Assembly (NCBI GenBank): GCA_951799425.1 | Contig: OX637407.1 | Coordinates: 1,495,501-1,559,500 of the forward strand | From: Ilex aquifolium | Taxonomy: Eukaryota; Streptophyta; Magnoliopsida; Aquifoliales; Aquifoliaceae | DNA: 64,000 nt | Direction: 5' to 3' | Shown: positions 4,742-62,995 of the stretch, in pieces | Numbering within the stretch: position 1 is the first letter of the stretch | Layout of the letters: each line of letters opens with the position of its first letter | Program-made: the position numbers and the translations under genes | The notes under the pieces: model-generated | Told to the model about the DNA's origin: nothing | Databases searched by the model: none | Seen by the model: only the letters and a program-made list of their open reading frames with translations

Positions 4742-4768
4742 AAGAAAGTTTCATCCTCGAAACTTACC

Positions 4769-31405: not shown

Positions 31406-31424
31406 CTTGGAATACGATTCCAAG
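31406..31424 (+). other. Conserved LTR hairpin (copy 4)
   Basis: CTTGGAA, TACGA loop, TTCCAAG, about 205 bases before the LTR end. Confidence 0.6.
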
Positions 31425-39584: not shown

Positions 39585-39660
39585 AAACCTACCGGTAGAT
39601 TTTGGCCATTGGTGTGAAACCTACCGGTAGGTTTTCATCGACCTACCGGTAGGTCTTACC
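39585..39660 (+). repeat. Palindrome array upstream of A2 env-like ORF
   Basis: Three CCTACCGGTAGR cores; the last two are separated by TTTTCATCGA. It ends about 275 bases before the ATG at 39936. Same class as the LTR arrays of A2. Confidence 0.8.
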
Positions 39661-39935
39661 CAGAATGCTAAAAGTAGGGCTTTTAATCGAATTTTTTTCG
39701 GAGGAACCCTTCATTTTCCTCCTTAATCACGAACCCTATATCATTTCCCTTTCACTCATTTCTCTCCAAAGCCTCCAAATCCCTAACCTACCGCACAAAT
39801 CTCTCAATCCTCAAACCCTAGGTCTTTTGATTTGGTGATTTTTAGTGAAAATTCGAAGGTTTCATCTTCCAAAACCCTAGGTTGTCTGAAAATCTACAAG
39901 CCCTAAATTCCTATATTCTCTCCAAAATCTCTCAA

Positions 39936-40039
39936 ATGGCTCGTAATGTGCTGATCATTCATGAGGCTACGGACCCAATTGAGGGCCTCTTCTTGATTCT
40001 CTTCTCACTTTTGACTATGGGGGCACTGTTGCTTTGCAT
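39936..40039 (+). pseudogene. Env-like ORF of A2, N-terminal part
   Basis: MARNVLIIHEATDPIEG, then a hydrophobic segment (LFLILFSLLTMGALLLCI). The reading is interrupted here by the chromovirus at 40040; the remainder is at 51491-52903. The start is supported by the match to A1. Confidence 0.7.
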
Positions 40040-42770
40040 TGTGACGCCCTTAAAACCGGGGGTCCTTTATCAACCGTTGATCACCCATCAACCCGCGGAA
40101 ATACCCGTGATTATCGCACAACCCGACATCATGTCAATAGTCACCCCTTAACCGGGATCACAAAAACCAAAATTTTGGATGGAGTCTCCCTTATACCTGG
40201 CACTCCCAAACGCATAACTTGTTTACCTTTAATCACATGACCCATCCGAGGTCCAATATTCATTAATTTAAACTCAATTATTGTCCATTTATAACATTAG
40301 AACAAAAGGACTCAACCCCGGAAGCATAGGAAATCATTCTTAAAATTTCAAATTTTTGGAAAACCTTCCGGAACGTTTTGGTCGTCCTTCCGGAAGGTTT
40401 TGCCCACTGGAAAATTCCTTCCAGAAGGTTTTGATCGACCTTCCGGAAGGTTTTGCCTACTGGAAAAGTTCTTTCGGAAGGTTTTGATCGACCTTCCAGA
40501 AGGTTTTGCTTGCTGGAAAAGTTCTTTCGGAAGGTTTTCATCGACCTTCCGGAAGGTTTTGCTTGCTGGAAAAGTTCTTCTGGAAGGTTTTCATCGACCT
40601 TCCGGAAGGTTTTGCCTGTTTTTCTACAATTCCTTCCTTTTTCAATTCCAATCCATTCGAATCCATTCCACAACCATCCAATACATGTTTAAAGAAAATT
40701 TTCACATAAAACATGATTCATACAAGTTCTATTACAAACAATTCCATAAATTTACATGCCAAAATTAAGCTTTCATAATAATTTTACAAAAACTCAAGAT
40801 AAAGCCACATCTCGGATTTTCCTCCATCTTTGAGGCCCCGAGTGAGAGCCTTTCACCAGCGTATAGCCCGCACCTGAAATGTTTTCCCATAAAGGGTGAG
40901 CTACGCTCAATAGGGTATCTCCTAAAGAGGTCACTCCCCAACCTAAGTGCATATGAAATGTGCTCATGCAACAATCAACAAACATCATCCATTCCAATTA
41001 AGAATATGCAATTCAATGTTGGAATTCTACCATACCATGCCATGAAATGAGATGAGACTCACTCATGCACTTTAACCCGAGCCCACTCCAGCTCCCACAA
41101 CACAATGCAATGCCAATGTGTAATAAATCCATCATTGATGAAATACATCCAATGATCATTTTGAAATAAAATTCATATGTTTATAAAACCAAATCATTGT
41201 TGGATGTTACACATTGAATGACTATTTTATAAAACAAAATCAAGTGTCTTTGTTGAGTATCGAATTTTGGAATCACACCGCTGGTTCCGTACAACATTAC
41301 ACTTTTTCGGAATTTCACCACAGAGGAGTGTATGAACCAAGTAGCCGGGTCTTGCACCCGAGGGAGAATCTAGCCCTTCTTGCTCTACCTGACACAAGTT
41401 TTTCATGCAACCATGCAACTCAGCTGGATCTTCGATCCAGCCTTCCCGAGTCCACTTATCAACCACCAAGAATTGTGTTTAATCAACCATGCACACACAC
41501 CCACACCCATGCCTCATGCCCATGAATGTGATGCCTCAGTGCATATGCAATGTAATGAACAATTGCTACACCAATATCATATTCATATGTAATGGATGCC
41601 ATATGGATTATTTCTACCACATCTTAACACATACCAAGGATAATTACATCCTAAGCATATAATATCCATAAATCATCACAACGCCAATATATCATGATCA
41701 CATATCAACATTTACATTTCCAATGGTAATTCACATCATCCAAGCATAGGATTTCAATTTACCCCATCATCCAAACATGCTATCTCAATTTCATCAAAAC
41801 AACCACTTCAATCATTCAAGGTATTTTATCAAGTACCCATATAAGGCACAACTCATGTAAACACATAACATGCCCCAAATTCCACATTTCTCAAGAAATC
41901 ACATTAGGCAATTTCTACATATCCAATTCAAAATAAAGTTTATTCTACCCATTTTCAATACCCATTTCACCAAAACAACGACAATAGGCAAGTGTTAAAT
42001 ATCTCTAACAACCTACCCATTCCATATAATCACCCTATGTTGGAAATAAACCTAAGTAGGAGGGAACCCAATCTCTTGAAGCGTAAAGAACAACCGTAGG
42101 AAACTTTCAAGAACCCGATTCAAGCTAGAATCTTCACTTCTCCAAAATCCCGCCCTTGGAATCTCGCCCAAACCCGACCTCCTTGGTATGGTTTTGTAGC
42201 CCTTGGCAAGGAGAACAACTTTTGTTCTTGGCCCGAGTGGATTCGAGCACCCGATCTCCGTAGATCGTAGAGAGAAGGTGGAGAGCCCAAGCTTTTTCCC
42301 TCTCTTCTTCCTCTCTCTTTTTAATCAAGCAAAAGGCTGAGAGATTGGGGAAGAAAATATGATTTTCTTCCCCTTTTTATAGTCCCCAATTACTTGGTCC
42401 ACAATTCGCCACACGTCCTCCTTTTTCCGGGTCCGTTTTCGCTCCGAAATAATTAAATTTCGCCCCGGTTCAAGTTCAGAATATTTTTATTTCAACTTGC
42501 TTTAAATTATTTTCTAACTTTCAAAATTTATTAAAAATTTCGTTTTTGGGTCACCCGAGACCCGATCGCCTCGTAAAATGCCAAAAATTCAACCATCTCG
42601 GAATTCGATGAAAATTGACAGGGTTGCTAGATTTCGCGAGACAAATCCAACGGTGAGATCCGTTTCTTCATCCGAGCTCTAGAAAAATTCAGGTTTTCAA
42701 CCCATATAGTAGTGACAAATTACCGTTTTGCCCAATTTCGTAAAAATTTCAAATTTACCGGGGTTTTACA
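40040..42770 (-). repeat. 3' LTR of chromovirus (2731 bp)
   Basis: In element sense it starts TGTAAAACCCCGG at 42770 and ends GGGCGTCACA at 40040. A TATA box CTATAAAAAGG lies near 42372-42384, and the CCTTCCGGAAGG array (40362-40612) is about 1.8 kb downstream, near the LTR end. This is unlike the other families, where the array precedes the TATA box. Open frames in the array are repeat artefacts. Confidence 0.92.
40362..40612. repeat. Palindrome array, core CCTTCCGGAAGG (about 53-bp tandem unit)
   Basis: Five perfect TTCCGGAA cores alternate with decayed ones. Spacers are TTTTGATCGA or TTTTCATCGA between the two members of a pair, and TTTTGCCTACTGGAAAA between pairs. The 5' LTR copy (48755-48935) has about one unit fewer. 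Confidence 0.88.
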
Positions 42771-42788
42771 TTCTTCCCCCCTTAAAAG
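42771..42788 (-). other. Polypurine tract of chromovirus
   Basis: AAGGGGGGAAGAA on the minus strand directly before the 3' LTR. Confidence 0.8.
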
Positions 42789-42879
42789 AATTTCGCTCCC
42801 GAAATTCACGTACACATGCACATTCAATCACATGCATATGCTACGGTTATATAACATAAATGACTAGAAGAATTGTACC

Positions 42880-45800
42880 TCCTTCCTCGAATAAGAACAG
42901 ATAACTGGTATGTATGGTGTCCTCACGCTCCCATGTTGCCTCCTTCACGCCTCGGTGCTGCCACAACACCTTCACTAGCCTCATGGTCTTACCTCGCAAA
43001 ACCTACTCCCGGCTATCCATCGTACGTACCGGTCCCTCCTCAAAGGTCCCATCCGCATCAACAATCAACTCGCCCCAATCCACCACATGTGTCGGATCTG
43101 GAGTATACTTCTGGAGCATAGAGACATGGAACACCGTGTGAACACCAGATAAATTTGGCGGTAACACCAACCGATAAGCAACTGCATAAACCCTATCGAG
43201 TACCTCGAAGGGCCTGATATACCTCGGTGACAGCTTTCCCTGCTTTTCGAATCTGACCACTCCTCTCTTAGGCATCACCTTCAAGAAGACATGATCTCCC
43301 ACCTCAAACTCTAGAGGTCGCCGCCGTCTGTGAGCGTAGCTCTTCTGCCGGCTCTGAGCCGTGAGAAGAGGCTTCCGTATCAAGTCCACCTTCTCTGAGG
43401 TGTCCCTAACCAATTCTGGACCCGTAAAGGGTCTCTCTCCGACCTCCGTCCAACAAACCGGAGAATGACAAGGCCTCCCATATAGTGCCTCATAGGGTGC
43501 CATTTGTATGCTCGCCTGGTGACTATTGTTGTAGGCGAACTCTACTAAGGGTAAATGCTCTTCCAAGCTACCCTTGAGGTCTAGGACGCATGTCCGTAGC
43601 ATGTCCTCTAAAATCTGGATGGTCTTCTCCGAATGACCGTCCATTTGGGGATGAAAGGTTGTACTCATCGTCAACTGTGTCCCCATGGCCCGCTGGAAAC
43701 TCTCCCAAAAATGGGTAGTGAACCTGGGATCCCGATCAGATACTATAGAGACGGGCACCCCATGCAACCGGACAATCTCCCGTATATACAACCTACAAAA
43801 TTCTTCAAATGTGTAGGTCATCCGCACCGCCAAAAAGTGTGCCGACTTGGTAAGTCGATCAACTATCACCCACACCACATCATGCCCATGCGATGTCCAT
43901 GGCAAGTGAGTCACAAAGTCCATCATGACGTGCTCCCACTTCCACTCAACCACCTCCAATGACTATAGCAACTCTGCTGGTCTCTGGTGCTCAACCTTAA
44001 CTTGCTGACACGTGAGACATCGGCTAACAAAGTCTCCAACGTGCCTCTTCATCCCACTCCAATAATATTAGCGACGAAGATAATGGTACATCTTCGTGCC
44101 GCCTGGATGCACAGCAAAACAGGAGCAATGGAACTCCCTAAGGGTCTCCTCTCTCAGATCCGCCGACTGGGGAACCAAAATCCTTCCCCTAAATCGAAGA
44201 CTACCATCCGAGTGAATGGCCCAGCCCTCGTCACCTGTACCCGACCGTACTCGGTCCTTGATGGACAATATCTCCGTGTCTTGTCCCTAGGACTCGATCA
44301 CTCTGCTCAGTAGGGAAGGCGTAGCCACCAAAACTCCCCACGGTACCCTGAGCCTGTCTCATGTAGTGTAGCCCGAACTGTCCTATAGTCTTGAGCATCT
44401 GCCACTCCCGGGAAGCCACACTAGCCAAGACTCCCCGTAACTTCCGACTGAGTGCATCAGCCACCACCTTTGCCTTACCAAGGTGGTAATGTAAAGTGAA
44501 GTCATAGTCCGCCAAATACTCCATCCACCTACGTTGCCTCATATTGAGGTCCCGCTGTGTAAAGATGTACTTTAGACTCTTGTGGTCTGAAAATACCTCA
44601 AACTGCTCACTATAAAAATAGTGGTGCCATGCCTTCAAGGCAAAGACAATAGCCGCCAACTCCATGTCATGCGTGGGGTGGTTCTACTCGTGGGTCTTCA
44701 ACTGTCGAGAACCATAAGTCACCACCCTCCTGGACTGCATCAACACACATCCAAGTCCGTCCATGGAGGCATCATAGTACATTGTGTACCTCTGTCCCCT
44801 CTCCAAAACTACTAGAATAGGAGGTGAAGTAAGCCTCCTCTGTAATTTTGGCAAATAGTACCGAAGCGCCCGAAGGTGAAACATTCGGTCTAACGAAGCC
44901 CTTGTTCAACAATTCTTGTAATTGGACCTAGAGTTCTAGCAACTCTACCGGTGCCATTCTATGTGGAGTCATAGAAGAAGGTGATGTATCGGGGTACAAC
45001 TCTACAGTGAAGTCTACATCCCGATGTGGAGGTAATCCTAGAAGTTCGTCCGAAAAAACATCCTCAAACTCACAAACCACCCGAGGTAGGCCTAACTCTT
45101 GTCTCATCTTGTTCTCCAGAGTAAAGCTTGCAAGCCAACCCATCAATTGCCCGTACCATCAAGAGTCATACACGGTCTGGGGTAAATCATCGTGCTTTTT
45201 TCCTTGAAATTCAAAACAAACACCCTTCGGTGTGTAGGCAGTGACCCTCTTCCGATCACAATCAATGACGACTCGATGTGCCGCAAACCAATCCACCCCA
45301 AGGATGACATCAAACCCCGACATGTCCACGACCCTAAGGTCCACGGTGAGTAGAATCCTCGAGATCTCTAACTCACAACCGACATATTTGATCAAAACAT
45401 ACCCTAGCCCCTAGGGTTGATTTTACCCATAAGGACTCTTCTAGGGTTGTGATATCTAAATCTATATCATGCACAAGAACGTGAAAATGAAAGTATGTGA
45501 CACACTCAAATCAAATAACACGTGTGCCCATAAATAAGGAATAAGAGATATACCGTGGGTTGCCGACTGATCCATCGGCTCACTCTATGGTGTAACGTCA
45601 AAGACCGTCTCTTAGGTCCCCAATGTTGCCGCTTGAGAGTCCTGTTCCTGGCCTTGGCCCACATCCTGGCTCATCCGGCCGGATTGCGGAGTCTCCACAC
45701 GTGAAGCAGTAGGGGCTTGTGCAACACCCTGTGGTTGGAACTGATTTCCCTGGTTCATAATGGGACAGGGAGGAACAACATGTGCTTGTGTGAGTCCTAC

Positions 45801-46202
45801 TGATGACTAGGATTGAGGCTTCTCGAAAATCTGTGAGCTTTGCCTCAAGGGACAATTCTTCCTCACATGGCCCAGTTGTCGACAATAGAAACATATCTTT
45901 TGACCCCCTCGATATGTCCCCTTAAAGCCATTCCCTCTTTGGGAAGACTGACCCTGGGCTTGGCCCTGCCCCTGTGATCCTTGTGGGCTAGATGTCTTAT
46001 GCTTTTTCCATGAACGTTGGTGGTCCATAGAACTCAAACTCCTTTGGATGGCTTGAGCCCCTTGGCTCAAATTGGCGTTTGCATGCGCTAGGTTAGCAGC
46101 CATCGTACTCATAGCCTCTATATAGGCTTGTTGGTCAAAGGTCGGTGGTGGTTGGGCATTGTTCCGTCCATCACCTCGGTGTCCTCTTCCTCTATTTGTC
46201 AT
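42880..46202 (-). pseudogene. pol: Gag-pol of chromovirus at 40040
   Basis: Minus-strand parts. Gag N-terminus and zinc knuckle are at 45807-46202 (MTNRGRGHRGDGRN, CFYCRQLGHVRKNC). Protease is at about 45160-45400 (VILGVDWFAAHRVVIDC). The start of reverse transcriptase is near 44930-45150 and RNase H at about 44470-44880 ([22 protein letters not shown]). The integrase finger is near 43990-44120 and its core at 43003-43959 (MMDFVTHLP, IVSDRDPRF, GHSEKTIQILEDML). A chromodomain-like end ([10 protein letters not shown]) is near 42890-43000. Broken at about ten places. Related to the fragment at 19488-21561. Confidence 0.85.
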
Positions 46203-46542
46203 CTACACACATCTCAGTAGCAATAAAGCACTAACTTAGTATCCCAAAATAGGGATCAAAGTCGAACCTTTGAGATTTATCTCCTTGTCTCCCTAGTAGA
46301 GCTTATGCTACCCACTAGTAGACATCTACACCCTGAACCATCCCGTTCATTCTATTTCCGACCCTCAAGGTTATGTTCTCTAACCCTAGTGTCTCTTTTT
46401 CCATATACATTTCAACATGCATATAATTCACTTAACATATAACACATACATGTGGCATTTGAAGCACATAACATGAAATGCACAATGAATGCAATGGTCT
46501 AGACCCATGCCCCATCAAGCCCTAGGTAAATCGTATACCTAG

Positions 46543-46682
46543 GCTTTGATACCAAGCTGAGATGCTCATCAAAGCCTAAGCTACATCATGGACTCTAAAC
46601 CTCTTTCACTCTTGCAATGGAAGATGATAGACTCATTTCCCACAAGGCCCATATAAGATCGATGGCCTATGCTCTGATACCA
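46543..46682 (-). other. Primer-binding site, tRNA-Met type, with a second upstream copy
   Basis: The functional-position site TGGTATCAGAGC is at 46671-46682, next to the LTR. A near copy TGGTATCAAAGC stands at 46543-46554, embedded in similar flanking text (AGCTTGGTATCA and CCTAGG or CATAGG), 128 bases away. The leader start thus appears duplicated. Confidence 0.7.
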
Positions 46683-46801
46683 AGCTGTGACGCCCCTAAA
46701 GCCGGGGGTCCTTTATCAACCGTTGATCACCCATCAACCCGCAGAAATACCCGTGATTATCGCACAACCCGACATCATGTCAATAGTCACCCCTTAACCG
46801 T

Positions 46802-48543
46802 TGATTCACACTTTTTTGTTGTGATCTGATTTATATTATACACCCAAGTATAAGTGGTCGAATTGTAGTTTTCTCGGTTTTAAGTCCAAGTATCGATCCC
46901 ACGAAAAGTTTTAATAATTAGGAAATAAAATGAAAATAGTGAAGTTTTTTTTTTGAGCGGACATCATGTGATAGCTTGTGATGTGAGCTTAGATTGATAA
47001 CTAGTTTAATTAAACGTATATTTGCAGATAGATTGTTTAAAGACAGTAATATAAAAAGTATCCTTCAGTTTAAGGATCCCATATGCGTTATATTGGTCAA
47101 GTACTGGAAATGCTACCTTACAACAATTAACTTCCATGTTACTAGAAAGTTAACCGGTAGGTCTGATGTATATAAACCATCACACAACAACTTCTTAGGT
47201 TAGCTGGTGGTATCCATGACAATTGATTAATTCAAGTAAACCAGAAGGACAAGCCATTCATGAGGAATACTTGAATTACTCAATTGACCCCATGATAGTA
47301 AGTGCATATATAATAAACCATAACACAACAACTTCTTAGGTTAGCTGGTTATAGATGTGCCAATTGACTAATTTGAGTAAACCAGAAGTACAAGCCATTC
47401 ATGAGGATTACTTGAATTATTCAATAGGTCATCTTTAGTATATATATACCAGTTAAACATCCTCAGTGCCTTTGGAGGTCAAGCCATACCGGTGGAACAC
47501 CGTAGATATTCGACTGGCAATATTATTATGTATATAAGTTAAACAACCCTAATAACCCAAAAAGACAAGCCATTCATGAGGATCATTTAGGTTTTGTACC
47601 ATGCAACAGTAGAACATCCTCAGTGCTCCGGTGGAGGTCAAGCCATACCGATTGGAACACCGTAGACGTTTAATCGGCAGGTTGATGATGCACTGATGAC
47701 ATAATTCCAGGCACAGCACCGAAATTACGTACATCACTGTATCATGCATGAAGTGTATAATACATATGTATATATATAAAAATATAAATAAAACATCAAC
47801 ATTTCCAGAAGTTAACCAATATTTTACATATGTTCACCTCTCACTGGAGGATAGAAGTAACTACTCACACCCCATTACTACAGACAAGCAAGGAGTGCGA
47901 GCAGTTTTCATTACAATAGTAAATACAGTACAGACTCAGACACTTCTTTCACAAGGAATCACTGAAATACAATCACCTTTTGTATCAGTTACGACAAAAA
48001 GGTGACCACAGTTCAATTATCCAAATAGAAAGATAACACAGAAATGTAGAAATACACAGTCTCAGTTGGAGTGTATGACAGACCGGATTTGTGTATGACT
48101 TCCTCTTTTTCTCTTTCTTTTTCTTTGGAATTCTCTCTTAAGCTCTCTCTCTACCCGGCCTCCCGTTCAACTGAAGAAGAACATGCATATTTATAGGAAG
48201 AAAAGAAGCATGAGGTAGAGGAATTGCATGAGCCGTCTTTGGCAACCGTCAGGACGCCCCTCCACCGTCCAGACGGTGGAGCCTTGCTGGATTATTTGTG
48301 GTGTGCTGAATCTTCTCTTGGTTGAATTACACTTTGGTCCTTTGCTCTTTCAAGCTTCAATATATTGTTCCTTGCATTTTTCGGTAAGTCCGCATCAGTC
48401 CCTGAAATTTCAGACATAACACAATTAAAACCCTAATTTACGCACAAACACTAATTGACTCTAATTGATAGTTTTTAGTTATTTTATCTTACCAATTTGC
48501 CTTGTTTAACGATTCTAATTCATATACAAATTAGGTTTAATCA
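46802..48543 (-). repeat. Solo LTR (1742 bp) inside chromovirus LTR, TSD accgt/accgg
   Basis: Minus strand, TGATTAAACCTAATTTG at 48543 to GTGTGAATCA at 46802. Flanks accgt (46797-46801) and accgg (48544-48548) differ at one base; the empty site is seen at 40150. Same family as the solo LTR at 54515. Palindromes ACCGTCCAGACGGT (48264-48277) lie about 70 bases upstream of a TATA box at 48186-48197. Confidence 0.88.
48186..48197 (-). promoter_or_regulatory. TATA box of solo LTR 46802-48543
   Basis: CCTATAAATATG on the minus strand, just downstream of the CGTCC/GGACG palindromes at 48244-48280. Confidence 0.6.
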
Positions 48544-48754
48544 ACCGGGATCACAAAACCCAAAATTTTGGACGGAGTCTCCCTTGTAACGGACACTCCC
48601 AAACGCATAACCTGTTTATCTTTAATCACATGACCCATCCGAGGTCCAATATTCATCAATTTAAACTCAATTATTGTCCATTTATATCATTAGAACAAAC
48701 GGACTCAAGCCCCAGAAGCATAGGAAATCATTTTTAAAATTTCAGATTTTTGGA

Positions 48755-48935
48755 AAACCTTCCGGAAGGTTTTGTCCACTGGAAAATTCCTTCTGGAAGG
48801 TTTTGATTAACCTTCCGGAAGGTTTTCCCTATTGGAAAAGTTCTTCCGGAAGGTTTTCATCGACCTTCCGGAAGGTTTTGCCTACTGGAAAATTTCTTCC
48901 GGAAGGTTTTCATTGACCTTCCGGAAGGTTTTGCC
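48755..48935. repeat. Palindrome array, core CCTTCCGGAAGG, 5' LTR copy
   Basis: About three 53-bp units against about four in the 3' LTR, so copy number has changed between the two LTRs. Confidence 0.85.
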
Positions 48936-49372
48936 TGTTTTTCTACAATTCTTTCCTTTTTCAATTCCAATTCATTCCACAACCATCCAATACATGTTTA
49001 ACGAATTTTTTCACATAAAGCATGATTCATACAAGTTCTATTACAAACAATTCCATAAATTTACATGCCAAAATTAAGCTTTCATAATAATTTTACAAAA
49101 ACTCAAGATAAAGCCACATCTCGGCTTTTCCTCCATCTTTGAGGCCCCAAGTGAGAGCCTTTCACCGACGTATAGCCCGCACCTGAAATATTTTCCTATA
49201 AAGGGTGAGTTACGCTCAATAGGGTATCTTCTAAAGAGGTCACTCCCCAACCTAAGTGCATATGAAATGTGCACATGCAACAATCAACAAGCATCATCCA
49301 TTCCAATTAAGAATATGCAATTAAATGTTGGAATTCTACCATATCATGCCATGAAATGAGATGAGACTCACT

Positions 49373-51490: not shown

Positions 51491-52903
51491 GGCCCGAACC
51501 AAGCGAACCGCACCCGACTCCTCTCAACCCGAGGAGCCTGACAGTCGCAAGAGAAGTGGAGAGGAGTCTAGCGGGGACCGGAATGAGTAGAGAAAAAAAG
51601 CCAAAAATGAGGCTAGGAACCAACTGATTCAAGAAAAGAATGTCACATGCGAGCGGTTCCTCGACACATTTCCATTGGTCCGAGGAACGAGGTTGTTAAG
51701 CTCATTCTTGCCCATGGCATGGCATTCTGGTTCGAGCCTGTGGATGGGTATAACTTGTCCCTATGTAGGGAATTCTATCAGAAGCTAAAAGTTGTGGAGG
51801 TGAATGAGGTCGAAACATTAAAGGCAAACATCAGGGGTAAGGCATTTTAGGTGACCCCCGCCGTCATTGCCACTCTCCTAGGAAATTATGAGAGAACGCC
51901 CTCCTCCATGCCAGTTTATCCTCACAACATCTCCCGAGTCAAGACAGTTGAAGAGTATGTGGCATTAATGTATGAGGACCGTAGTCAGTTTAAGGGAATT
52001 GTCCAAGTTGGGGGGTTGAAGCACTCTTATAGACTTTTGAATAAACTTCTTCATTACAATCTTCTACCGAGCGGCGTAGAAAAGACGCCGAATATTGAAA
52101 AGTTGGCTCTTTTGGACGATGTCATGTCAGGAAAGACGGTTGACTTCGCTCTTTTCATTTGGGAAGTGATGAAAGATTTCGCTGAGACACAGAAGCCCAA
52201 GGCCAATCTTCCTTTCGGGAGTTTGGTGACCCGGATGTGCTTGCATTTCAAGTGCAAGGGTTACGCTTTTGACAAAATCACTCCTCCCGACACCGGGGTA
52301 ATTGGGAAGGCAAGTAGCAAGAAGAGAAAGGCGATGAGTCGGGGGGAGCGAGTTAAGGCTTTAAGACCAGACTCTAAGGCTGCTAGGCCTTCATCTTCTG
52401 CTGGACCCTCTTCATCAGTCCCATCCTCTTCTGCATCAGAGCGCTCAATACCTCAGCGCCTCAATGCATTAGAGGTGTCTGTACATGGTATTTCAGTGAT
52501 GATGACGGAGCTTTTCATGCATACTTTCCCAAGGAGGCCCATCCCGGGTGGACCACCACATTTAGCTTCTGAACCTATACCTCCTGCCTCGGTCCCATCT
52601 GCCTCCACAGTGGTTGAGGTGGACGGTGATGATGAAGACACAGATGAGGATGTGGAGGGAGAGAGTGACTTTGATAGGGATGATGATGGGGGTAGTGATG
52701 ACAGAGACGGAAATGACGATGATGATTATTGTTTTCATTGTGGTTGTTTTTGCCTTTATGGAGGAGTAGGATATTGTAGGTTCTATCTTTTCTTTTTGTT
52801 TTGGAGTGGAGTAACTGGCCTTGTAGAAGAATCCTTAGGTTTTAGGCCATTTTGTCTCTTTTTGATGTTTGACTCCATGTACTATAACCTTGAACCACAT
52901 TAA
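51491..52903 (+). pseudogene. Env-like ORF of A2, main part
   Basis: It continues after the chromovirus with a basic stretch (ARTKRTAPDSSQPEEPDSRKRSGEE in part). The globular domain follows: REFYQKLKVVEVNEVETL, VTPAVIATLLGNYERTP, VYPHNISRVKTVEEY, LHYNLLPSGVEKTP, LPFGSLVTRMCLHFKCKG. Then come a Ser/Pro linker, a strongly acidic run (about 52620-52720) and a Cys-rich, partly hydrophobic end. It is close to A1's ORF, so the protein is conserved between copies. Domain type as for A1. About two breaks besides the insertion. Function unknown. Confidence 0.72.
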
Positions 52904-53065: not shown

Positions 53066-53082
53066 AACTCAAGTTGGGGGTG
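53066..53082 (+). other. Polypurine tract of A2
   Basis: AACTCAAGTTGGGGGTG-type text directly before the 3' LTR start TGATTAGC. Confidence 0.8.
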
Positions 53083-53328
53083 TGATTAGCACAAAACATT
53101 GCATATTTAAAGTGCTTTTGCATCCCTTTTGTGCCGATTTTTGAGGTTAATATGAGTTGACATGCATTGTTTGTGCTATTTATAGAATTTCGATATGGTT
53201 GCAGATAAAAGGTGATAAATGATGCTTGTTAAAGCCTTCACATAGTGTTTGAGATGAATGATGATGAAAGGATGGCTTGACGATAGCTCAGGAGGTGAAG
53301 AAACCAAGAAATCAGCAAAAGCCAAGAA

Positions 53329-53460
53329 AAACCTACTGGTAGGCCCTACCGGTAGGTTTTGGCTACTGTTCCGCACCTACCGCCAAACCTATCGGTATTT
53401 TTAGCTCACTAGAGTGAAACCTACCGGTAGGTTTCCATTGAACTACCGGTAGGTTTTACT
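53329..53460 (+). repeat. Palindrome array of A2 3' LTR, core CCTACCGGTAGG
   Basis: Cores are spaced by TTTTGGCTACTG, CTCACTAGAGTGAAA and TTTCCATTGAA. Better kept than the 5' copy. Confidence 0.8.
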
Positions 53461-54782
53461 GAAACAACCCAGATTCTACATATCAAGCTCTGCCACCTTG
53501 GGGGTCCCACCAAGCACACTCCCACTTGTCCCTAACACTTCTTACACTCTGAACACCCCTTCCTCAAACTACATTGGAATTTTGGAGCTTTGGGCATTAA
53601 TGAAGAGAGAGGAGAGAGAAGATGCTGGGTGTGCAGGCAAAGCCTGCACTTGCCTGCACCAACCCATCCCTTGCAGCCCCTATGGATGGAGATCACATCA
53701 CACAGCTAGGGCATCACTCCATGGACATTTTTGGCAAGGAGAATAGACCATTATTCAGCATTATGCAATACACATTGTAATATATATATAGAGAGAGAGA
53801 GAGAAAGTCTAGGAAGAAGATGAATAGTGTTAGAAAGAGAAGTTGAGATTTTTGCATTTTCTTCGACCCATTGTCTTGTAATTTCATGTAAGAATCTTCT
53901 AAGCTTTGTTTGAAGTCTTTAATGCTATTTATTGCAAGTTGTTTTCAATTTTAGTCTTCCATTAAAGCTTTCACCATTAATGCATTCAAGTTCTTCAATT
54001 TCTTAGTTAGAGATGGGTATTCAATGCACTTTATTTTAGTTTATGTTTTCTTGCATTTACGTAGCTAGAATCTTCAATTCCTTAGAATGTCTTCTCATTA
54101 CATTGTTGTCTTTAACTTAAGCATGAGTAGCTAAGTCTTTAAGTTGGCTAATCCAAGGGAGACCTCCTCTTGGGTATGCCATTTCAACTCATCTTCTTTC
54201 CTCCCCTCGGTGTACGATGGTTCGGTTTGACTGGGTTAAGTGCGGACATGGTTGTGAGTCTTTGATATCCCGTAGGTCTGATCATGAGTTATGCTTGGAT
54301 CCTCACTTCCATCTCGTCCCTCACTTCCCACGAATCAATCGTTCATCTATGCACCATTGGAAGAAGGTTTCAAGTTGACTTGACATTCCCATTGGAATGA
54401 ACCATTCGGATTAGCCAACACTTGTTTCCCATTTCATTTTCATCACAACATAATCAAAATCCAAACTTCAACCAACAAAAGATTTTACACTTTACCCTTT
54501 TCTACCAAAATCACTGATTAACCCTAATTAAGTATAAATTAAAGTTATTAATAAAGTCAAATTAGTGTAATAAAATAACTAAAAAGTGGTAAATATTATG
54601 AATTATAGTTTGTATGTAAATTAAAAGTTTTACATTTTATGTCCAAAAGTTTCAGGTTTAATGCAGAAATACTACAAAATACAAGGAACAAACTGTCAAA
54701 GCTTGAAAGGACAAAAGGCCAAAGTGTAATTTCTACAAAGCAAGAGTCATCACATGCAAGTTGCAAACATCCAGCAAGGTTT

Positions 54783-54819
54783 CACCGTCCAGACGGTGGG
54801 ACTGCCGTCCGGACGGTCA
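54783..54819 (+). repeat. Palindrome pair, core CCGTCCGGACGG
   Basis: CACCGTCCAGACGGTG (54783-54798) and CCGTCCGGACGG (54805-54816), six bases apart. Confidence 0.8.
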
Positions 54820-54866
54820 CCTTTGTCAGAATTCAAGTTGCCCACTTGCCCACTTGCCTTCCCACG

Positions 54867-54878
54867 CCTATAAATAGG
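54867..54878 (+). promoter_or_regulatory. TATA box of solo LTR 54515-56394
   Basis: CCTATAAATAGG, itself a perfect palindrome, about 50 bases after the CCGTCCGGACGG pair. Confidence 0.75.
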
Positions 54879-55315
54879 CTGCTCCTCTTCAGCTTTAAGA
54901 AGGCCGGGCAAGATAATTCTGAGAGCTCCTGAAGCTTGTTCAAAGAGAGAAAAAAGAGAAAGAAAAGATAGAAAAGAGAAGTGAAAACACGCGCCGGTCC
55001 GTGTTATACTTCAGCCCTACGTCCTGTATTTTTATATTTTCGTTGTATCTTTCCATTCAGATAGTTGAACTGCTGCCACTTTTTCATCTTAATCGATCAT
55101 AAGAGTGGTTGTGTTTCAATCGTTCCCTGCGAAAGACATTTAAATTCCGCACTTTACTTTCTGTTGTAATGACAACTGCTAGCTCTCCTTGCTTGTCTAT
55201 AGCAATGGAGCGTGAGTAGTTCCGTATATCCTCCGGTTCGAGGGGAACATATGTATAATATCAGTCTGTTTATGGAATTGCTGATGTTTTATTTATATGT
55301 TTATTATATATATGA

Positions 55316-55990
55316 GACGGGCCTACTAGAATAACCCCGGCGTTCCTACCGGTATGGTTAACCCTCCACCGGAATGCTGAGGAAGTTCCACTGACGCCTG
55401 GTATTACTATATATAATAATATTGCCTACTAGAATAACCCCGGTGATCCTATCGGTATGGCTAGTCCTCCACCGGAAAGCTGAGGAAGTTCTACTGTCAA
55501 TATATATATTACAAGATAACCTATTGAATAATTCAAGTATGCCGTTTGAGTGACTTCACTTTCTGGGTGATGTATCTAAATACAGTTAGCCTAAGAAGCG
55601 GTTGTGTTATGATTAACTACTAACGGTGACCTGACAAGTCACCGGAAGATAGTCTGTACCCCCTGCGGATTTTACTTGGATTACTCAATTGGACATCTAT
55701 GCCCAGTGTAGCCTAAGAAGCAGCTGTGCTATATATTACCACCAGTGTAGCTTAAGAAGCAGCTGTGTTATGGTTTATTATATACGCATTTGCAATCATG
55801 AGATCAAGTGAATAACTCAAGTATTCCTCATGAATGGCTTGACCTTCTGGTTTGCTTGAGTTAATCAGTTGACGTGGATATAACCAGTGTGGCTTGAGAA
55901 GCAGCTGTGTTACAAAATATTACCACCAGTGTAGCTTGAGAAGCAGCTGTGTTATGGTTTATATACATCAGACCTGCCGGTTAGCTTTCC
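55316..55990 (+). repeat. Diverged internal repeats in solo LTR
   Basis: Two sets intermingle. One is a roughly 110-bp unit with AGAATAACCCCGG and CTGAGGAAGTTC (two copies). The other is a shorter unit with AAGAAGCAGCTGTGTTA (about five copies). They lie in the transcribed part after the TATA box. No coding potential. Confidence 0.7.
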
Positions 55991-56436
55991 AGTAAAATGG
56001 AAGTTAATTGATGTGAGGTAGCAATTCCATAATACAACTAATATAACGCATGTGAGATCCTTGAACTGAAGGATATCTTTTATATTTCTGTCATTAATCT
56101 ACTTTACTTACGCATTTCATTATTGTTGCAATTTAATTCCGTCTTTTAATTAAGTTAAGTTACTCGAACAGACTAAGCTCACACCACAAGCTCTCAAACA
56201 TCAAACTACTCCAAACAACCTCTTTATGGCTTTATTTTTATTTTATTGTTTTTATTTTATCTTTAATCTCTAATTACTAAAACTCTCTGTGGGATCGATA
56301 CTTGGACTTAAAAACCGAGAAAACTACAATTTGACCACTTATACTTGGGTGTAATATAACAATATAATTCAGACACACTAAAAAGTGCGAATCAATCACC
56401 TTCAAAACGATTCACCTCCTTCCCTGAGGAGACGAC

Positions 56437-56455
56437 CTTGGAATACGATTCCAAG
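56437..56455 (+). other. Conserved LTR hairpin (copy 5)
   Basis: CTTGGAA, TACGA loop, TTCCAAG, same as in the 5' LTR. Confidence 0.6.
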
Positions 56456-56662
56456 TAAAACACGACAAGCAAAAGTCTCTCTGCGCTTGGGGAGCATTTT
56501 TGTTCACACACACACATTTCATTTTCCACCATTCTGTTGCCCTTTCTTTTGACATCATTCCAAGGGAGCGTGACACTCCCCTCCCCTTTTCACACATACA
56601 CCATATACACATTGAGGGATGATGTTAGGAGATTAGGAACAACAAAGGAAAATAACCAAGCA

Positions 56663-57036
56663 ATGACTAGGATGATGGGATGTTTTGTTTCTCTTTTGTT
56701 TCAGATTTTACACAATAGGGTTAGTTTTGTCGGCCTAGTAGAAGTGTCTTTAGGATTTTAGGCCATTTTGTTTTGAACTCTAACCTTTTGTACTGAACTT
56801 TTGAAATGATTAATGAAAAATGCCACAGTTGTTTGTTCCATCTTGACGAAGTTCATTTCGTTAATTGCATTGTATTTTTGCATTTTAAATGTTAGTGATA
56901 TACTTGTTTAAATGGATTGTTGTAGTTTTATGCTTTGTGGTTGAAAATAAAAGTTTGCTAGGGACTAGCAAAACTCAAGTTGGGGGGTGTGATTAGCACA
57001 AAAGATTGCACATCATTTACACATTTGCACCCTTTT
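56663..57036 (+). other. A1 3' UTR, polypurine tract and start of A1 3' LTR
   Basis: It starts with the duplicated atgac, then A1's 3' UTR. The TTGCTAG-GGA-CTAGCAA hairpin is at 56955-56971, the polypurine tract at 56972-56989 and the LTR start TGATTAGCACAAAAGATTG at 56990. After 47 bases element B begins. Confidence 0.85.
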
Positions 57037-57245
57037 TGGAAAGAAAATAAAGAAAGTAGAAGAAAGCTAGTCACTTTTGGAGGGTTTCCACCGCAACCAA
57101 AAGGGGATCTATCTTCCTTCTTGCAAGTAATTGAAAGCCTAAGTTTAAGACTAATTCTATAACAAACTAAGAGATGTTGGTCTAATGTCAAACCAATCTC
57201 AAGAACCACTCTCCAAGCTCCCCCTTGAAGCTCCCACAATGGGAG

Positions 57246-57255
57246 TATTTATAGG
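57246..57255 (-). promoter_or_regulatory. TATA box of B LTR
   Basis: CTATAAATAC on the minus strand, downstream of the TTCGAA array. Confidence 0.65.
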
Positions 57256-57346
57256 CAAGGAGGAGGGGACAAGAGGGGGTGAAGGAATAGTGTATGCCAC
57301 CCAAGTCCAAGTGAAAAGCCAACCACTCTGTAGCTAGTCTGGAGAC

Positions 57347-57655
57347 AACGTTCGAACATTGTCTGGCGTTCGAACGTTGTCTCTGTCTTTGCTTGATAGG
57401 AGTTCGAACGTGCTGATGGGGTCTGACCTTCCCACTCAAGTGGCCTGTAGTCTTCTGTGAAGTCCAATTCCACACTCCATGCAGCAGTCTGGTCTTCAAA
57501 TAATTAAAGGGGACATTCGAACATTGATTGGCATTCGAACGTGGTACTCAAGTACCTCAGTCTTCCTTCTTGGCTGTAACACACCATGTCTCAGCAGTCT
57601 GGCCTTCACATGTTTCAAGGGAACGTTCGAACGTGAGTTGGCGTTCGAACGTTCC
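57347..57655 (-). repeat. Palindrome array of B LTR, core ACGTTCGAACGT
   Basis: Seven TTCGAA cores, mostly in pairs of the form ACGTTCGAACGCCAA, three bases, ACGTTCGAACGT. Confidence 0.85.
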
Positions 57656-57808
57656 TGCTTTGTTCCAAGCTTTTCCCATTCAAGTGTGATTCTTGTTGCC
57701 CTTGAGCCCTTGTTCACTTTAAGACCTGAAATGTCATCATTTACACTCCATCAAAGTATAATTAGTCTTAAAAAGGCATAGTGATATGCTAATTTTAACT
57801 ACTAATCA

Positions 57809-57820
57809 CACCCCCAACCT
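57809..57820 (-). other. Polypurine tract of B
   Basis: AGGTTGGGGGTG on the minus strand directly before the 3' LTR. A decayed form of the pre-PPT hairpin lies beside it. Confidence 0.75.
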
Positions 57821-59805
57821 AAATATTGCTAGTCTCTAATAATACAACGCTAGTCTCTAATAATACAACAATTGAAAATCTATTTCTAATGCCATTTTCG
57901 TAGGTCATCCGGTTGCATTTAGCGTATGCAACAAGCCGTTGAACCACTAGGTTTACCCTAGCGGACGAGTGTTATCTCATGAGGGTTTTCAGTGAAGCTA
58001 CCCACAAAATTCTATTGAACAAATATGTACATGAGAGATTGCAGGTTAAAGTAAGTTAGCATCATGGTCGTTTGGACACCCATCCCTCAATTCCAACTTA
58101 TCTCCCGCACAATCCTCTTTCATTGGTCTTTATTCTATGCGAAAATTAGAAATCTGTTACATTGGCATTTGAAATTCCCTGTGTAGTAGGAATGACCATT
58201 CTAGCAACAAGAATTGTTATATAACAACCATTCCATCTTACCACCTTCCATGGATAGCTTTGATTTCACAAACCTCTCTTAGCATGCTCTCAGCAAAAAA
58301 TTGCTCCGATTATAGTGACTTGTCTCTCAAGGGGCATGTGATCAGAAGGTGGCCAATCGAAAAATCACATGCACAATTAGTAAGGGAGTGAAGTTTAAGG
58401 AAACAAACTAATCATGTTTTGGCATAATCTCATGGAGGAATAATGATGTAATTAAAGAAATACTATTTAACATACCCCAACTTTTGGTTGACGATCTACA
58501 TATGCATCAGACTTGAGATCAATTAGGGCTTTTCATAGGTTGTAATGTGGCCAGAGGTCAGTGGCTAACAAAATGACGTCAATGGTATTCAAAAGCTATC
58601 ATCTGTTTATGTAGTGTAGCACACCTCTTTCTAGTCTTTTTGAAATTTCGCCTATAGATGTCATTTCTTTCTTTCATTTTTCTCATTGTTCATTTTCTTG
58701 GCAATATTCTGTTTTTTTATCTCTCTTTTTCGGTTGTTCTCACCGAAGTTTCTTTCCTTGAGCAGTGGCCACCATCGTCTTTTTTGTTTCTCTTGCTTTT
58801 CTGTTTCATATTGATTTACAAGAGGGTGCAAGAAAATTAGATAGCAAGGTATGTCAAGTATATTTTCTTGTGGCTCGGTTAGCATATGGGTTTCTTGAAG
58901 AAGAGATCATACATTGAAGGCTCAATCACGGCTAACTAGGAATATAATTTTGTAAAAGAAATGGCTAAGGCTCAAAATTAAATCAAAGATGGCCTAAAAT
59001 CCTTTCTCAAGTATGTGCATATTCATGCGTCGTTTGAACGGATTCCTTGTGGGATATGTCAATAGATCGCTTTAGTTGCGTCAATCAAAACAAGTTTAAT
59101 GAGATTATTCCAAAAAAAATTGAGGGTGAAAGACCTTACTTGAGTAAATGTTGATCGTCTCTCAAAAGTATTGCAAGGCTCGAAACTTACCATGGTATTT
59201 TTTCGTTATCTCCACTGGTTATGTCTGGTTTCTTATGAAATGTCGGTTATATATCAGTTCCATTTTCGAGTCTGGTCATCTTGTACCTTAGGAATAACAA
59301 ATACCAATATACATTTGACAATTTAAGCATAGAGAGAAACACCATTTTTCAAGGATCTGTGGTGATAAGTTTAAATTGCTAAGTTAGGTGTCAAACTGAT
59401 CATGTGATTAATTACTTTAGCAAACAGTCTCAGAGTCCACCTTTGTTCCATCATTTATCAACAATCAATATAATGCTAATTCTACACATGCATTTAAACA
59501 GATAAAAGTGATAAACTGAATCATTCATTTCACAAAATATGATCGTTTAATACAAACACCAAAGATTCAATTCATCCAACCAAAGAAGTAACAAAACACA
59601 AAAACTTTCAAACATCCACAACAATTCACAAAATAAGAAGCTTTGTCCACAAAAGAAGAAACAAACACACAAAACCACAATCAATTATAGAAATATCTCC
59701 TCCTCACTCTCCACCAGCTCTTCTAACTCCACCCGCTCCACCAGCTCCACCCCTCAAAAGGTGAAGAATCTCATCCTGCTTAGCTTCGATGCTAAGCATG
59801 ATCTC
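57821..59805 (-). other. Noncoding block of B between env-like ORF and 3' LTR
   Basis: 2 kb without a gene. About 58400-59280 aligns on the minus strand with the post-pol block of A2 (about 38090-38900; TAGGCCATCTTTGATT, GTGATTGAGCCT, CATGAGATTATGCCAA). In A2 that block lies before the env-like ORF. Open frames near 58660-58885 are AT-rich chance frames. Confidence 0.6.
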
Positions 59806-60816
59806 TCAAAGTGAGCGACGGGTGCTGGTGCTGGTACTGGGCCCTGTCTCCTCCTGATTCTGCATATGCTCCCTCTCTAACTCTCTCTCCTCCTCTGCAT
59901 CGAGCTCATCTTGCACCTCGTCAACTCCTCGAGTAGGGGGATCCTCATGTCTGGCTGCCGAGGTACCACTATGACCTTGGCTCCTCCGGAAGGAAGCATT
60001 GTTCAGTGGCCCCATCGGCTTTTGGATAGTCATCTCCGGCCTCACCTTAATCCCATGTTCCTTGCACATCTCCATGACCAAGGTGCCAAAAGGGAGAGAG
60101 TTTCTCTTCACATCGCATCCCTTCTTCATTTCATTCAAGATTAGTGAGGGGAGGTCTATGTTGTGGCCTTTCCCAAGTGCGTAGAGTAGGTGGGCCATCT
60201 CGGGGAAGATCTCGTTCTTGCGCCCAATTGGGGTGAAGTTCGAAACCGCAATCAAATTTAACATCTTATATTTATCAGTCAGTTCCCCTTGTCGAAAAAA
60301 TCTCCGCCCAGCCCAAGAAAAGTTAGACACCCCCGTCAGCTCCGTCCACACAATGTTCATCGCCACATTCTTTCTAGGAGGGTAGGTAGGCCTTGGTACT
60401 CGAGGCACCTCCTATCTCAAATCCCGGATGTATTCTTCATGTACATCAATATGGGCCCCCCTCACATACGTTTTGATTGCCCCATTGATGATCTCGGCAT
60501 TGGAGTAGAACTCTCGCACCAAGTCAACCACGGCTTCTCCACCATTTCTCAAATACAATATCCATCCTCTCCTCTCCATATCCTAAAAAATTCCCAACCC
60601 AGCAAAATCACCCAATACCACATCTCGCTCATAGACCATAGGTTGTTCTCGGTACAAATTTTCATACCTGTTTGCCTTGAGGGCGTTGGGGAAGCGGGTT
60701 CGATCATATCTCCGCACAATGGGTCTCCCCTCCCTTTCGTCGATGACCTCTTCCACCATATTGGGCTCCTAAGTTGGTGGATTACGCCTAGCAAGTAGCT
60801 TGACCCTAGGAGGCAT
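59806..60816 (-). pseudogene. Env-like 3' ORF of element B
   Basis: The start ATG is complementary to 60814-60816 (MPPRVKLLARRNPPT). The globular domain has VDLVREFYSNAE-like text, RRFFRQGELTDKYK, PIGRKNEIFPEMAHLLYALGKGHNIDLPSLI and LPFGTLVMEMCKEHGIK. It ends in a Glu-rich, Ser/Thr tail (EEERELEREHMQNQEE). LPFGTLVMEMC matches LPFGSLVTRMC of A2, so it is the same domain type. No hydrophobic segment is seen at its start, unlike A1 and A2. About three breaks. It follows a TATA box (62704-62716) by about 210 bases once the solo LTR is discounted. Confidence 0.72.
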
Positions 60817-61160
60817 GATGTTTCGGGTTTGAGGTTTTTAGGGCTCGAGAGTTTTGATTTCCTTGTGAAAATGAGGATTTTTGATGTGGGAATGGTTTTG
60901 GGAGGGTTGATTTTAGGTAGAAATGGGGACTGAGGGGTGTTTTGAGGGCTGGGTGCTTGATGTTTTTCCTTGTTATCCCTAACCCCTAAATATACTCCCT
61001 CAAAATGTATTGTTTATGGATGGAGGGGAGTGTCACACTCCCTTTGAGGAGTGTCAAAAGAAAGGGCAAGGAGATGGGAAAATGAGATGGTGGAAATGTG
61101 TTATGTGTATGAACAAAAATGCTCCCCAAGCGCAAGGAGACTTTTGTGGGTCGTGTTTTA

Positions 61161-61177
61161 CTTGGAGGTATTCCAAG
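61161..61177 (-). other. Conserved LTR hairpin (copy 6)
   Basis: CTTGGA, short loop, TTCCAAG; slightly shortened. Confidence 0.5.
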
Positions 61178-62261
61178 GTCGTTTCCACGGGGAATGATGT
61201 AAACCGATAGGAATTGATTTTGGGTGAAAGAAAGTGTAAAATTCTTTGTGATTGAAAGTTGTTTGGTGAAGTGTGTTTTGGTGAAAATGAAATGAGAAAA
61301 CAAATGTTGGCTAACCCAAGAGGTCACTCTAATAGGAATGTCATCTCAACTCGAATCCTTCCTCCAATAAAGCATAAATGAACGATTGATTCGTGGGAAG
61401 CTAGGGATAAGAAGGGTGAGTATCTAAGCATAAACCGTGACTAGGCCTACGGAATATCAAAGACTCACCAGTTTATCCACCCTCAACCCAGTCAAACCGA
61501 ACCATTGAACTTTGAAAGAAGGGAGGAGAATGAGTTGAAATGTCATACCCAAGTGGAGGTTCCCCTTGGTTTAGCCAACTAAAGGCTTTTAGCTACTCAT
61601 GCTTTGGATGAAAATAACAATGTAATGAGAATGCATTGCAAATGAATAAAGTTCTTGAGTAACTAAATGCACACAAACATAAGCTATAAATGATAGCAAT
61701 GAATACCCATTTTATAAGTAAGAAAATGAAGAACTTTGATGCATTGATGGTAAAATCTTTAAAAGAGAATTAAACTTGCAATGAACTTGTAGGAACTAGC
61801 ATTAATAACATTAAATGAAGCTCTAAAGAGTCTTATAGGAGATTACAAGACAATGTATTGAAGAAAATGTGAAAATCTCAATTTTATCTCTCTAGAACAC
61901 TATTCATCATCTTCTACCAAGACTATCTCTCTCTATATCTGTATATCCTTGTAACTAATACTGAATCCCCAATGCTGGAGAACTCTTTTCCTCCAAAAAA
62001 CGTCCCCTAGTCTCCTCTATAGCTCTCTGATGTGAATCTCAATCCTTAGGGGTCAAGGGGGACAAGCTGGACAGGGTAGTGCAGAGCTAGCCTGCACACC
62101 CAGCTGTCTTCTTCTTCTCTCTCTTCATTTATCCTTCCAGCTTTCCAAGTCAAAGTGGGGGTGGTACAACGTGCAGGAGGAGTCAGAGACAAGTGGGAGA
62201 ATGATTGGTGGGTCCCTCAAAAACGGCTGGCTTGAGTTACAGAGATTGGGCAGGAATAGCA

Positions 62262-62395
62262 GACCGTACCAGTATGCGGTACCGGTACCCCGAACTCCAG
62301 AGGCTGGACCGTACCGGTACTGTGTACCAGTACTCTATGTTCCAGTGGCCAAATCGTACCGGTATTGCGCACCGATACGCTTCTGCTGCTTTGTC
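62262..62395 (-). repeat. Palindrome array, core GTACCGGTAC (decaying)
   Basis: GGTACCGGTACC, GTACCGGTACTG and GTACCGGTATTG cores with GGCTGG and CCAGTGG spacers. Same LTR family as 17794, but with the other core type. Confidence 0.7.
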
Positions 62396-62703
62396 TGATT
62401 TTTCTGATTTCTTCACTCCTGAGCCACTCTTTAGCCACTCTTTCATCCTCATTCACCTCAACTCATTTGGGAAGGATTTAAGAAGCCTCATTTAGCGCTC
62501 TTTTTCTGCAAACACCAAAAATCATCATTAAGCACAATAATAAAACAACTCCAATCAATTAACCCCAAAAGCACTTGAAAATAGGATGATTAGCACCTAA
62601 AATATGCAAAGTTTTGTGCTAATCACTGGGTAATGAAGAGGCACTCAAGGGTTTGGAGGTTTTTCAAAATTTTGGGGGGTTTTGAAGTGAAGAAGACGAA
62701 CCA

Positions 62704-62716
62704 GGTATTTATAGCC
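62704..62716 (-). promoter_or_regulatory. TATA box upstream of B env-like ORF
   Basis: GGCTATAAATACC on the minus strand, about ten bases after the TTCGAA array and about 210 bases (without the solo LTR) before the ATG at 60816. Suggests a dedicated internal promoter. Confidence 0.6.
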
Positions 62717-62723
62717 TGAGAAG

Positions 62724-62995
62724 TGACGTTCGAACGTTACTAACGTTCGAACGTGTATAGAAGGATTTTAAAATTATCGTTCGAATGTGGATTAACGTTC
62801 GAACGTGGCGAGCTCCCAGTACTTTTGAGTTTTCATCAGAGACCAAAGTACTGTAAGCTCTTCTCATTCGAACGTTCTATTGGCGTTCGAACGTGGAGAG
62901 CTCCCAGTACTTTTTGGTTCCATCAGAGACTTCATCAGAGGCAGAGTACTACAAGTAGGTGACATTCGAATGTCACTTGGCGTTCGAACGTTAGA
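62724..62995 (-). repeat. Palindrome array upstream of B env-like ORF, core ACGTTCGAACGT
   Basis: Eight TTCGAA-type cores in four pairs. Two pairs have the ACGTTCGAACGCCAA layout found in the B LTR. Between pairs a longer text recurs (AGTACTGGGAGCTC, GAAGTCTCTGATG). Confidence 0.82.

Follow-up and report, generated by a model that had tools for sequence, protein, structure and literature searches.

The stretch of DNA analyzed here, termed the window, comprises 64,000 nucleotides of the 800-Mb genome of the plant Ilex aquifolium (contig OX637407.1, positions 1,495,501–1,559,500). The window contains nested Athila-type elements, designated A1, A2 and B. Elements A2 and B carry arrays of palindromes both in a long terminal repeat (LTR) and in front of an internal open reading frame (ORF) that matches PF20167. 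This ORF is called 'env-like', which is used only as a label, and the site in front of it is called the pre-env place. Element A2 (28093–56662, plus strand) is inserted in A1, with the target duplication ATGAC on its outer sides. The 5' LTR of A2 spans 28093–31632 and the 3' LTR spans 53083–56662 (both plus strand), with an insert at ~54515–56394 within the latter. The Pfam domains of A2 are arranged in the order gag PF03732, RVT_1, H2C2 plus rve, and PF20167, followed by the polypurine tract (PPT) and the LTR. The arrangement of LTR, gag, reverse transcriptase (RT), integrase, extra sense ORF, PPT, and LTR is that of Athila elements of the Ty3/gypsy group, and the extra ORF is, through PF20167, related to ATHILA ORF1 / Transposase_32, as in Athila.

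The insertion point of A2 is the 3' end of the A1 env-like ORF, and A1 is the older element. Specifically, the broken A1 env-like ORF (26760–28092, plus strand) is interrupted by A2 at 28093, and A1 continues at 56663–57037 (plus strand; right limit approximate) with its 3' spacer, its PPT, and the start of its own 3' LTR at 56990, which is cut off near B. The env-like ORF of A2 is broken after ~105 bases by a large insert. Its first part lies at 39937–40041 (plus strand; right limit approximate, from blast), and a later open frame, measured from stop to stop, lies at 51851–52900 (plus strand) and matches PF20167 Transposase_32 with E 2.8e-12. Element B is on the minus strand. Its LTR starts at 57808, and its integrase and RT lie past the window end, in stretch L006. 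The broken env-like ORF of B (59700–60816, minus strand; left limit approximate) has its ATG at 60816 and matches PF20167 in 59809–60411, with E 2.2e-12.

The first-pass annotation of the window reported arrays with an ACCGGT core in the LTRs and in front of the env-like ORFs of A1 and A2, and arrays with a TTCGAA core in the LTR and in front of the env-like ORF of B, the latter followed by a TATA box. The arrays are all present at the coordinates given, as is the TATA box, but the assignment of one LTR array to A1 is wrong. The A1 pre-env array (A core, ACCGGT) spans 26328–26465, and the A2 pre-env array contains three CCTACCGGTAGG-class sites at 39588–39653. Three A-class sites are located in the A2 5' LTR (30206–30314) and four in the A2 3' LTR (53332–53453), all on the plus strand. 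On the minus strand, the B pre-env array (TTCGAA core) contains eight ACGTTCGAACGT-class sites at 62726–62991, and the B 3' LTR array contains seven B-class sites at 57348–57652. The sequence TATAAATA at 62706–62713 (minus strand, read from 62713 to 62706) belongs to the putative internal promoter of B, and the same sequence at 57246–57253 (minus strand), ~96 bp past the last core, belongs to the B LTR promoter. The distance from the array to the ATG of the env-like ORF, previously put at 275–285 bases, measures ~277–295 bases. The earlier pairing of the LTR array at 30201 with the A1 pre-env array fails. That LTR array belongs to A2, because A2 sits inside A1, as the duplication ATGAC indicates. 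A1 was accordingly withdrawn as an independent case of LTR and pre-env pairing; its own 3' LTR starts at 56990 and is cut off, which leaves no LTR array of A1 to be assessed in the window.

The arrays stand out both in the window and in the genome. The window contains 73 perfect palindromes with arms of at least 6, compared with 11–21 in five first-order resamplings, and across the 800-Mb genome the 18-base A palindrome AAACCTACCGGTAGGTTT has 1543 exact occurrences, with 0 for the reversed control. Class sites were defined as matches to the 12-base class motif with at most two mismatches. By this definition, A2 is free of A-class sites throughout 7,908 bp of gag-pol, the initial 105 bp of env, the scanned 1,583 bp that cover env and 3' spacer, and the other LTR parts scanned, and B is free of B-class sites throughout 4,882 bp of the pol side and 3,145 bp from env to PPT. 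Within the parts scanned, the arrays of A2 and B are restricted to two places, namely the unique 3' region (U3) of the LTR and the pre-env place.

Core agreement, promoter signs, and the PF20167 ORF

The leading core class is the same at both places in 19 of the 22 elements of this genome in which both could be scored, and differs in three (label permutation, P ~2e-5; the elements fall into three core families, few and non-independent). The matching of cores, first noted from the window elements, is thereby supported in more elements, and about two independent core changes are seen. Same-motif copies upstream of the env gene, as in the Sirevirus system, are present in these 19 elements.

The 22 elements comprise A2, B, and elements from three samples. 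Sample (a) consists of 20 stretches around sites among 50 listed A-palindrome places and includes B- and C-type elements; L009a, L014, L015, and L019a carry both places, and all four match. Sample (b) is blind to palindromes and consists of 10 among 100 listed PPT/LTR junction places (238 in the genome). Five of its ten loci agree (L030, L032, L034, and L036 of family B, and L033 of family A), two do not strictly agree, and three (L031, L035, and L037) are unreadable, with the pre-env place outside the stretch or behind an insertion. In the LTR parts scanned, class sites are missing from L031, and L035 shows a single weak A-class site and a single D-class site. Sample (c) consists of 10 among 125 env-like places, picked from matches starting at the query start, and is therefore mostly family A. 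A-type sites are found at both places in nine of these, while the tenth stretch (L044) is by alignment not a pre-env region. Left out before the count of 22 were A1, L009b and L019b (no own LTR), L031, L035, L037, and L044. L019b was rejected as a pre-env array; its flank matches no pre-env flank, and an LTR start adjoins it.

Family B has a TATA box at a fixed distance behind the internal array. TATAAA is found at most 80 bp behind the array in all seven copies and exactly 14 bp after the last core in six of them. In the seventh copy, L036, decay of the last palindrome means that the distance, 48 bp, is counted from an earlier one. As a background, TATA[AT]A occurs in 7.3% of random 85-bp stretches of the window. 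The internal B module, TTCGAACGTCAC-CTCAG-TATAAA, has 256 exact copies in the genome, with 0 for the reversed control, and its length is 27 bp in 99 of 100 listed copies with a pattern that allowed gaps of 0–12 and 0–6. For comparison, the A core with its downstream flank has 57 genome copies (control, 0). In the B LTRs, TATAAATA lies 95–96 bp behind the array in six of eight and at 116 bp in one, and the L030 LTR has only TATATA, at 155 bp. Palindromic repeats upstream of a TATA box, the arrangement of Sirevirus LTRs, are thus present in seven of eight B LTRs. These motifs and their spacing provide good support for the putative internal promoter of B.

The PF20167 ORF is under purifying selection. 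The median ratio of nonsynonymous to synonymous substitution rates (dN/dS) is 0.15 in B, with a finite ratio in 33 of 41 pairs, and 0.14 in A/C, with a finite ratio in 15 of 33 pairs and saturation in the remainder; these pairs include some elements split into two pieces. Twenty among 125 listed genome matches have no internal stop, some of which are two pieces of one ORF. Pfam gave no envelope homology; PF20167 was the only match at E up to 0.01 for the window pieces and up to 1 for P0002 and P0003. Five homologous proteins were found for the A2 piece, P0002 matched only itself, and no relatives were confirmed in IMG/VR. According to the available part of PMC11728184, PF20167 is related to PF03078, and a sunflower Athila protein with a PF20167 domain is predicted to be nuclear. 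The A1 ORF has a hydrophobic N-terminal stretch (window 26760–26880). By eye, L019a and L029 have a similar hydrophobic stretch ahead of a second ATG, and L015 begins directly at MVRTKR.

Readings of the shared arrays

What the 'env-like' genes of plant retroelements do, and how they are expressed, has long been an open question. The best reading of the arrays, and a fairly probable one, is that an internal promoter shares activator sites with U3. Specifically, the arrays would be clusters of dyad-symmetric sites for a DNA-binding protein acting as a dimer, located upstream of two RNA polymerase II promoters. The promoter in U3 would make genome-length RNA, and the internal promoter would make a separate RNA for the PF20167 ORF. 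The sequence itself shows the matching cores and their position, the fixed TATA spacing in family B, the purifying selection on the ORF, and the near-identity of the two arrays in one family C element; that the internal site acts as a promoter, that a protein binds the arrays as a dimer, and which genome encodes this protein are inferred. The joint change of the core would result from copying of the array within a lineage, combined with selection for sites that one factor can read. The first-pass annotation proposed one regulator or one promoter module for both places; the cores of 19 of 22 elements and the conserved TATA box behind both B arrays agree with a shared promoter module, the lack of a TATA box at the internal sites of A and C does not, and a single regulator is putative. 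An array shared by the LTR and the pre-env place, combined in one family with a TATA box at fixed spacing, would allow the expression of 'env-like' genes to be tested directly.

Several observations weigh against an internal promoter that shares its sites with U3. In families A and C, the 80 bp next to the internal array lack TATA[AT]A (16 of 16, A1 included), so a canonical internal promoter is seen only in B, and an internal promoter in A and C is proposed by analogy. No TATA[AT]A is found in 15 stretches of A/C LTRs either (one of them from the A2 5' LTR), although several of these stretches stop too close to the array to count. Common descent of one amplified family would also account for the copy number and the fixed length of the B module. 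Three elements depart from core agreement. L029 has a C palindrome at the pre-env place, whereas its LTR array is cut off after a single unit, whose outer base differs; L028 carries B sites in the LTR, but its pre-env place is occupied by a foreign LTR piece in which the array is decayed; in L048, CATACCGGTATG and CCTACCGGTAGG are mixed at both places, and this element was scored as an exception. Another possible mismatch is at L025:8–76, a C-class array that lies ~1.96 kb ahead of an LTR with ACTACCGGTAGT cores, with no PF20167 match between the two. The flank of this array matches a C-type LTR (75% over 83 bp), and the array is probably a piece of a C LTR; if internal, it would disagree with the LTR. 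In favor of shared sites, the LTR array in family A resembles the pre-env array of its own element beyond permutation (n = 13, P 0.0012; n = 12 and P 0.021 without L048), with the caveat that permutations do not remove shared ancestry. The resemblance within single elements is incomplete, however. The own pre-env array ranks first for 4 of 13 family A LTRs and, with two C elements included, is best for 5 of 15 LTRs, that of L029 ranking 14th of 15.

In the C-family element L015, the pre-env array and its own LTR array are 97% identical over 106 bp, spacers included. The pre-env flank of L015 is homologous to the A-family pre-env flanks (78% over 68 bp, palindromes masked), and because the flanks are homologous, the array occupies the same place as in A despite its different core, which is matched to that of its own LTR and counts in favor of the best reading. 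L015 reads as a change of the core at both places by copying of the whole array, seen in one clean element. Such identity, and the own-element similarity in family A, are what would be expected if the matching arose by sequence copying only, through gene conversion or template switching, with no shared regulator. Family B argues against this explanation. At E 0.01, the masked LTR and pre-env stretches of B share nothing, and the palindrome pair unit (31–35 bp) is the only part common to the two arrays, so copying alone explains B less well. The TATA spacing in B and the confinement of the A2 and B sites to two places in the parts scanned also argue against copying only, which we regard as unlikely. 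The palindromes might instead form RNA hairpins or be small-RNA targets for host silencing, consistent with the palindrome-rich LTR regions of maize Sireviruses being hotspots of small-RNA mapping in the available part of PMC5311732. This very unlikely alternative does not predict the TATA box at a fixed distance behind the internal array. The ORF could also be expressed from spliced genome-length RNA only, with the internal array as a relic. Splice acceptors are predicted for the env of Athila and BAGY2 in the portion of PMC2829016 available, but an array-TATA module of one length in 99 of 100 listed B copies, and cores that stay in step with the LTR, make this quite unlikely.

If the internal promoter does share activator sites with U3, the regulator could be encoded by the element or by the host. 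An element-encoded regulator, namely a PF20167 protein that binds the palindromes of its own family at the internal promoter and U3, either in positive feedback like foamy virus Tas or to counter silencing of its own element like VANC, would explain why the core varies by family and yet agrees at both places. It is also consistent with the basic clusters (such as KKRKAMSR) in the A2 piece, P0002, P0004, and P0005, with the acidic stretches near the C-terminus in A2 and P0001–P0005, with the predicted nuclear location of the sunflower relative (PMC11728184, in the part available), and with the env-like proteins of the two C elements, which are mutually nearest (dN 0.159, compared with 0.24–0.51 to others). 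However, the B pieces have neither an acidic stretch nor a strong basic cluster, the best solved-structure match (E 0.55) was not accepted and no DNA-binding fold was found by that comparison, and the hydrophobic N-terminal stretch of A1 fits a membrane protein. LTR arrays are also present where no PF20167 was found. L013 and L025 have LTR arrays and no PF20167 match in the 4.4 and 2.0 kb before the PPT, respectively. Outside env-bearing elements, a gypsy element at 2603–11604 (minus strand), with LTRs (2603–4727 and 9481–11604) that are 99% identical, has a 1248-amino-acid pol ORF without PF20167, that ORF being the only one scanned, and each of its LTRs combines a 102-bp tandem array of nine TCCTTATAAGGA copies with a GTACCGGTAC array. 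Weighing both sides, an element-encoded regulator appears somewhat doubtful. The more specific proposal that the PF20167 protein is a self-specific transcription activator or anti-silencing factor, and not an envelope, is tentative and rather doubtful. Such a protein would be made from the internal promoter, bind the palindromes of its own family there and at U3, and form an early-late feedback switch like that of foamy viruses, with protein and sites changing together in new families.

Alternatively, a host transcription factor reads the arrays, and the elements track host factors and exchange sites, which is a substantial possibility, short of probable. LTRs that start with TGATGAGC carry at least three different cores, which also speaks against an element-encoded regulator, and LTR starts of more than one kind, distinguished by the first ten bases only, precede the A, C, and D cores. 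Because LTRs starting with TGATGAGCGC or TGATGAGCAC carry at least three different cores (L012, L013, L016, L019, L020, L024, L025, L026, and window 28337), cores may be exchanged between lineages, where kinship is judged from the first bases alone. The A core contains ACCTACC, which is similar to the MYB AC element of plants, and a tobacco retroelement is known to be under MYB control. To our knowledge, no single known factor fits TACCGGTA, GTTCGAAC, TTCCGGAA, and CTTATAAG, and a host factor alone leaves the joint core change at both places unexplained unless there is one factor per family. A host factor, or a factor of another element, nevertheless fits the arrays without PF20167 and the mixed LTR cores better than an element-encoded regulator does. 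L013 and L025 had also been considered as support for a link between the absence of an env ORF and the absence of an internal array. Upstream of the PPT, L013 has A-class sites at a distance of 4.3 kb only, where they precede a gag-like frame and are probably its 5' LTR. With the arrays of both L013 and L025 ambiguous, this support was withdrawn.

Related systems

The closest known counterpart is the Sirevirus system of copia elements. In the available part of Bousios et al. 2010 (PMC2829016), Sireviruses have palindromic repeats upstream of ENV as well as in the LTR, where they precede the TATA box, the internal copies are absent where ENV is absent, and an internal promoter is supported but could not be identified. 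As in the Athila elements here, the motif varies between elements and is common to the LTR and the pre-ENV place within one (PMC2829016, same part). The annotation's statement that no system of this kind had been described thus needs qualification, with a counterpart published for Sireviruses (PMC2829016); for Athila, no version of the two-place palindrome arrays appears among the literature matches listed, judged by title and the start of the abstract. Sireviruses are Copia elements, and because of their gypsy domain order the window elements are not Sireviruses. The Sirevirus CGG-CCG core, present in all but one according to the same part of that paper, is not shared by all the elements here, which by inspection also have GTTCGAAC as the B core. 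Whereas the Sirevirus internal promoter is left unnamed in the text available, family B has a TATA box at fixed spacing, and, unlike what that text describes, the core here differs at one flank-homologous position (A and C). The comparison suggests that gypsy (Athila) and copia (Sirevirus) elements reached the same two-site layout.

Two further systems resemble the putative circuit. Foamy viruses have an LTR promoter and an internal promoter, both driven by Tas, with a TATA box and response elements before an accessory gene, as described in the available part of PMC3798896. In foamy viruses the internal promoter lies inside env and the activator is Tas, whereas here it would lie before the ORF and downstream of pol, with palindromic arrays and a putative activator. 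In the VANDAL/VANC system, as in the elements here, the motifs are often tandemly repeated and differ from one related element to another; the protein that binds the targets is known there to be VANC (PMC5735166, in the part available), whereas the binding protein here is a putative one. The foamy virus and VANC systems would be analogies for how the circuit works and not families to which it belongs. Maize Grande reportedly has a 3' internal accessory gene that encodes a nuclear protein and has its own promoter, and we know of no array that it shares with the LTR. The Grande accessory ORF is antisense (PMC7264820, in the part available), in contrast to the sense ORF here.

Other elements and inserts

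Two solo LTRs interrupt the elements described above. A 1.86-kb solo LTR at 28337–30195 in the A2 5' LTR starts with TGATGAGCGC, is flanked by the duplication CCAGG, and carries a different array; it ends directly ahead of the first palindrome in the A2 5' LTR array. A solo LTR of another family in B (60954–62625, minus strand) has a GTACCGGTAC core and the duplication CCCAG and is located between the internal TATA box and the env-like ORF. Because of this solo LTR, the promoter and the ORF of B are parted in the window copy, and a transcript starting near 62690 would enter the solo LTR before reaching the env ATG at 60816.

In L028, a foreign LTR piece with a decayed TCTACCGGTAGA array (~3750–4300, minus strand) is joined directly to the B leader and replaces the B array. 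The window also contains LTR arrays with CCTTCCGGAAGG cores at 40365–40617 and 48756–48936. A 946-bp pol stretch of the element with these LTRs is 67% identical in nucleotide sequence to that of the gypsy element at 2603–11604, and the CCTTCCGGAAGG core is also found in LTRs at L014:4987, L017:2266, L020:6378, and L024:3293. The spacers of the CCTTCCGGAAGG arrays, with CTGGAAAA, resemble the CTGGAGTAAAA spacers of the Athila A arrays.

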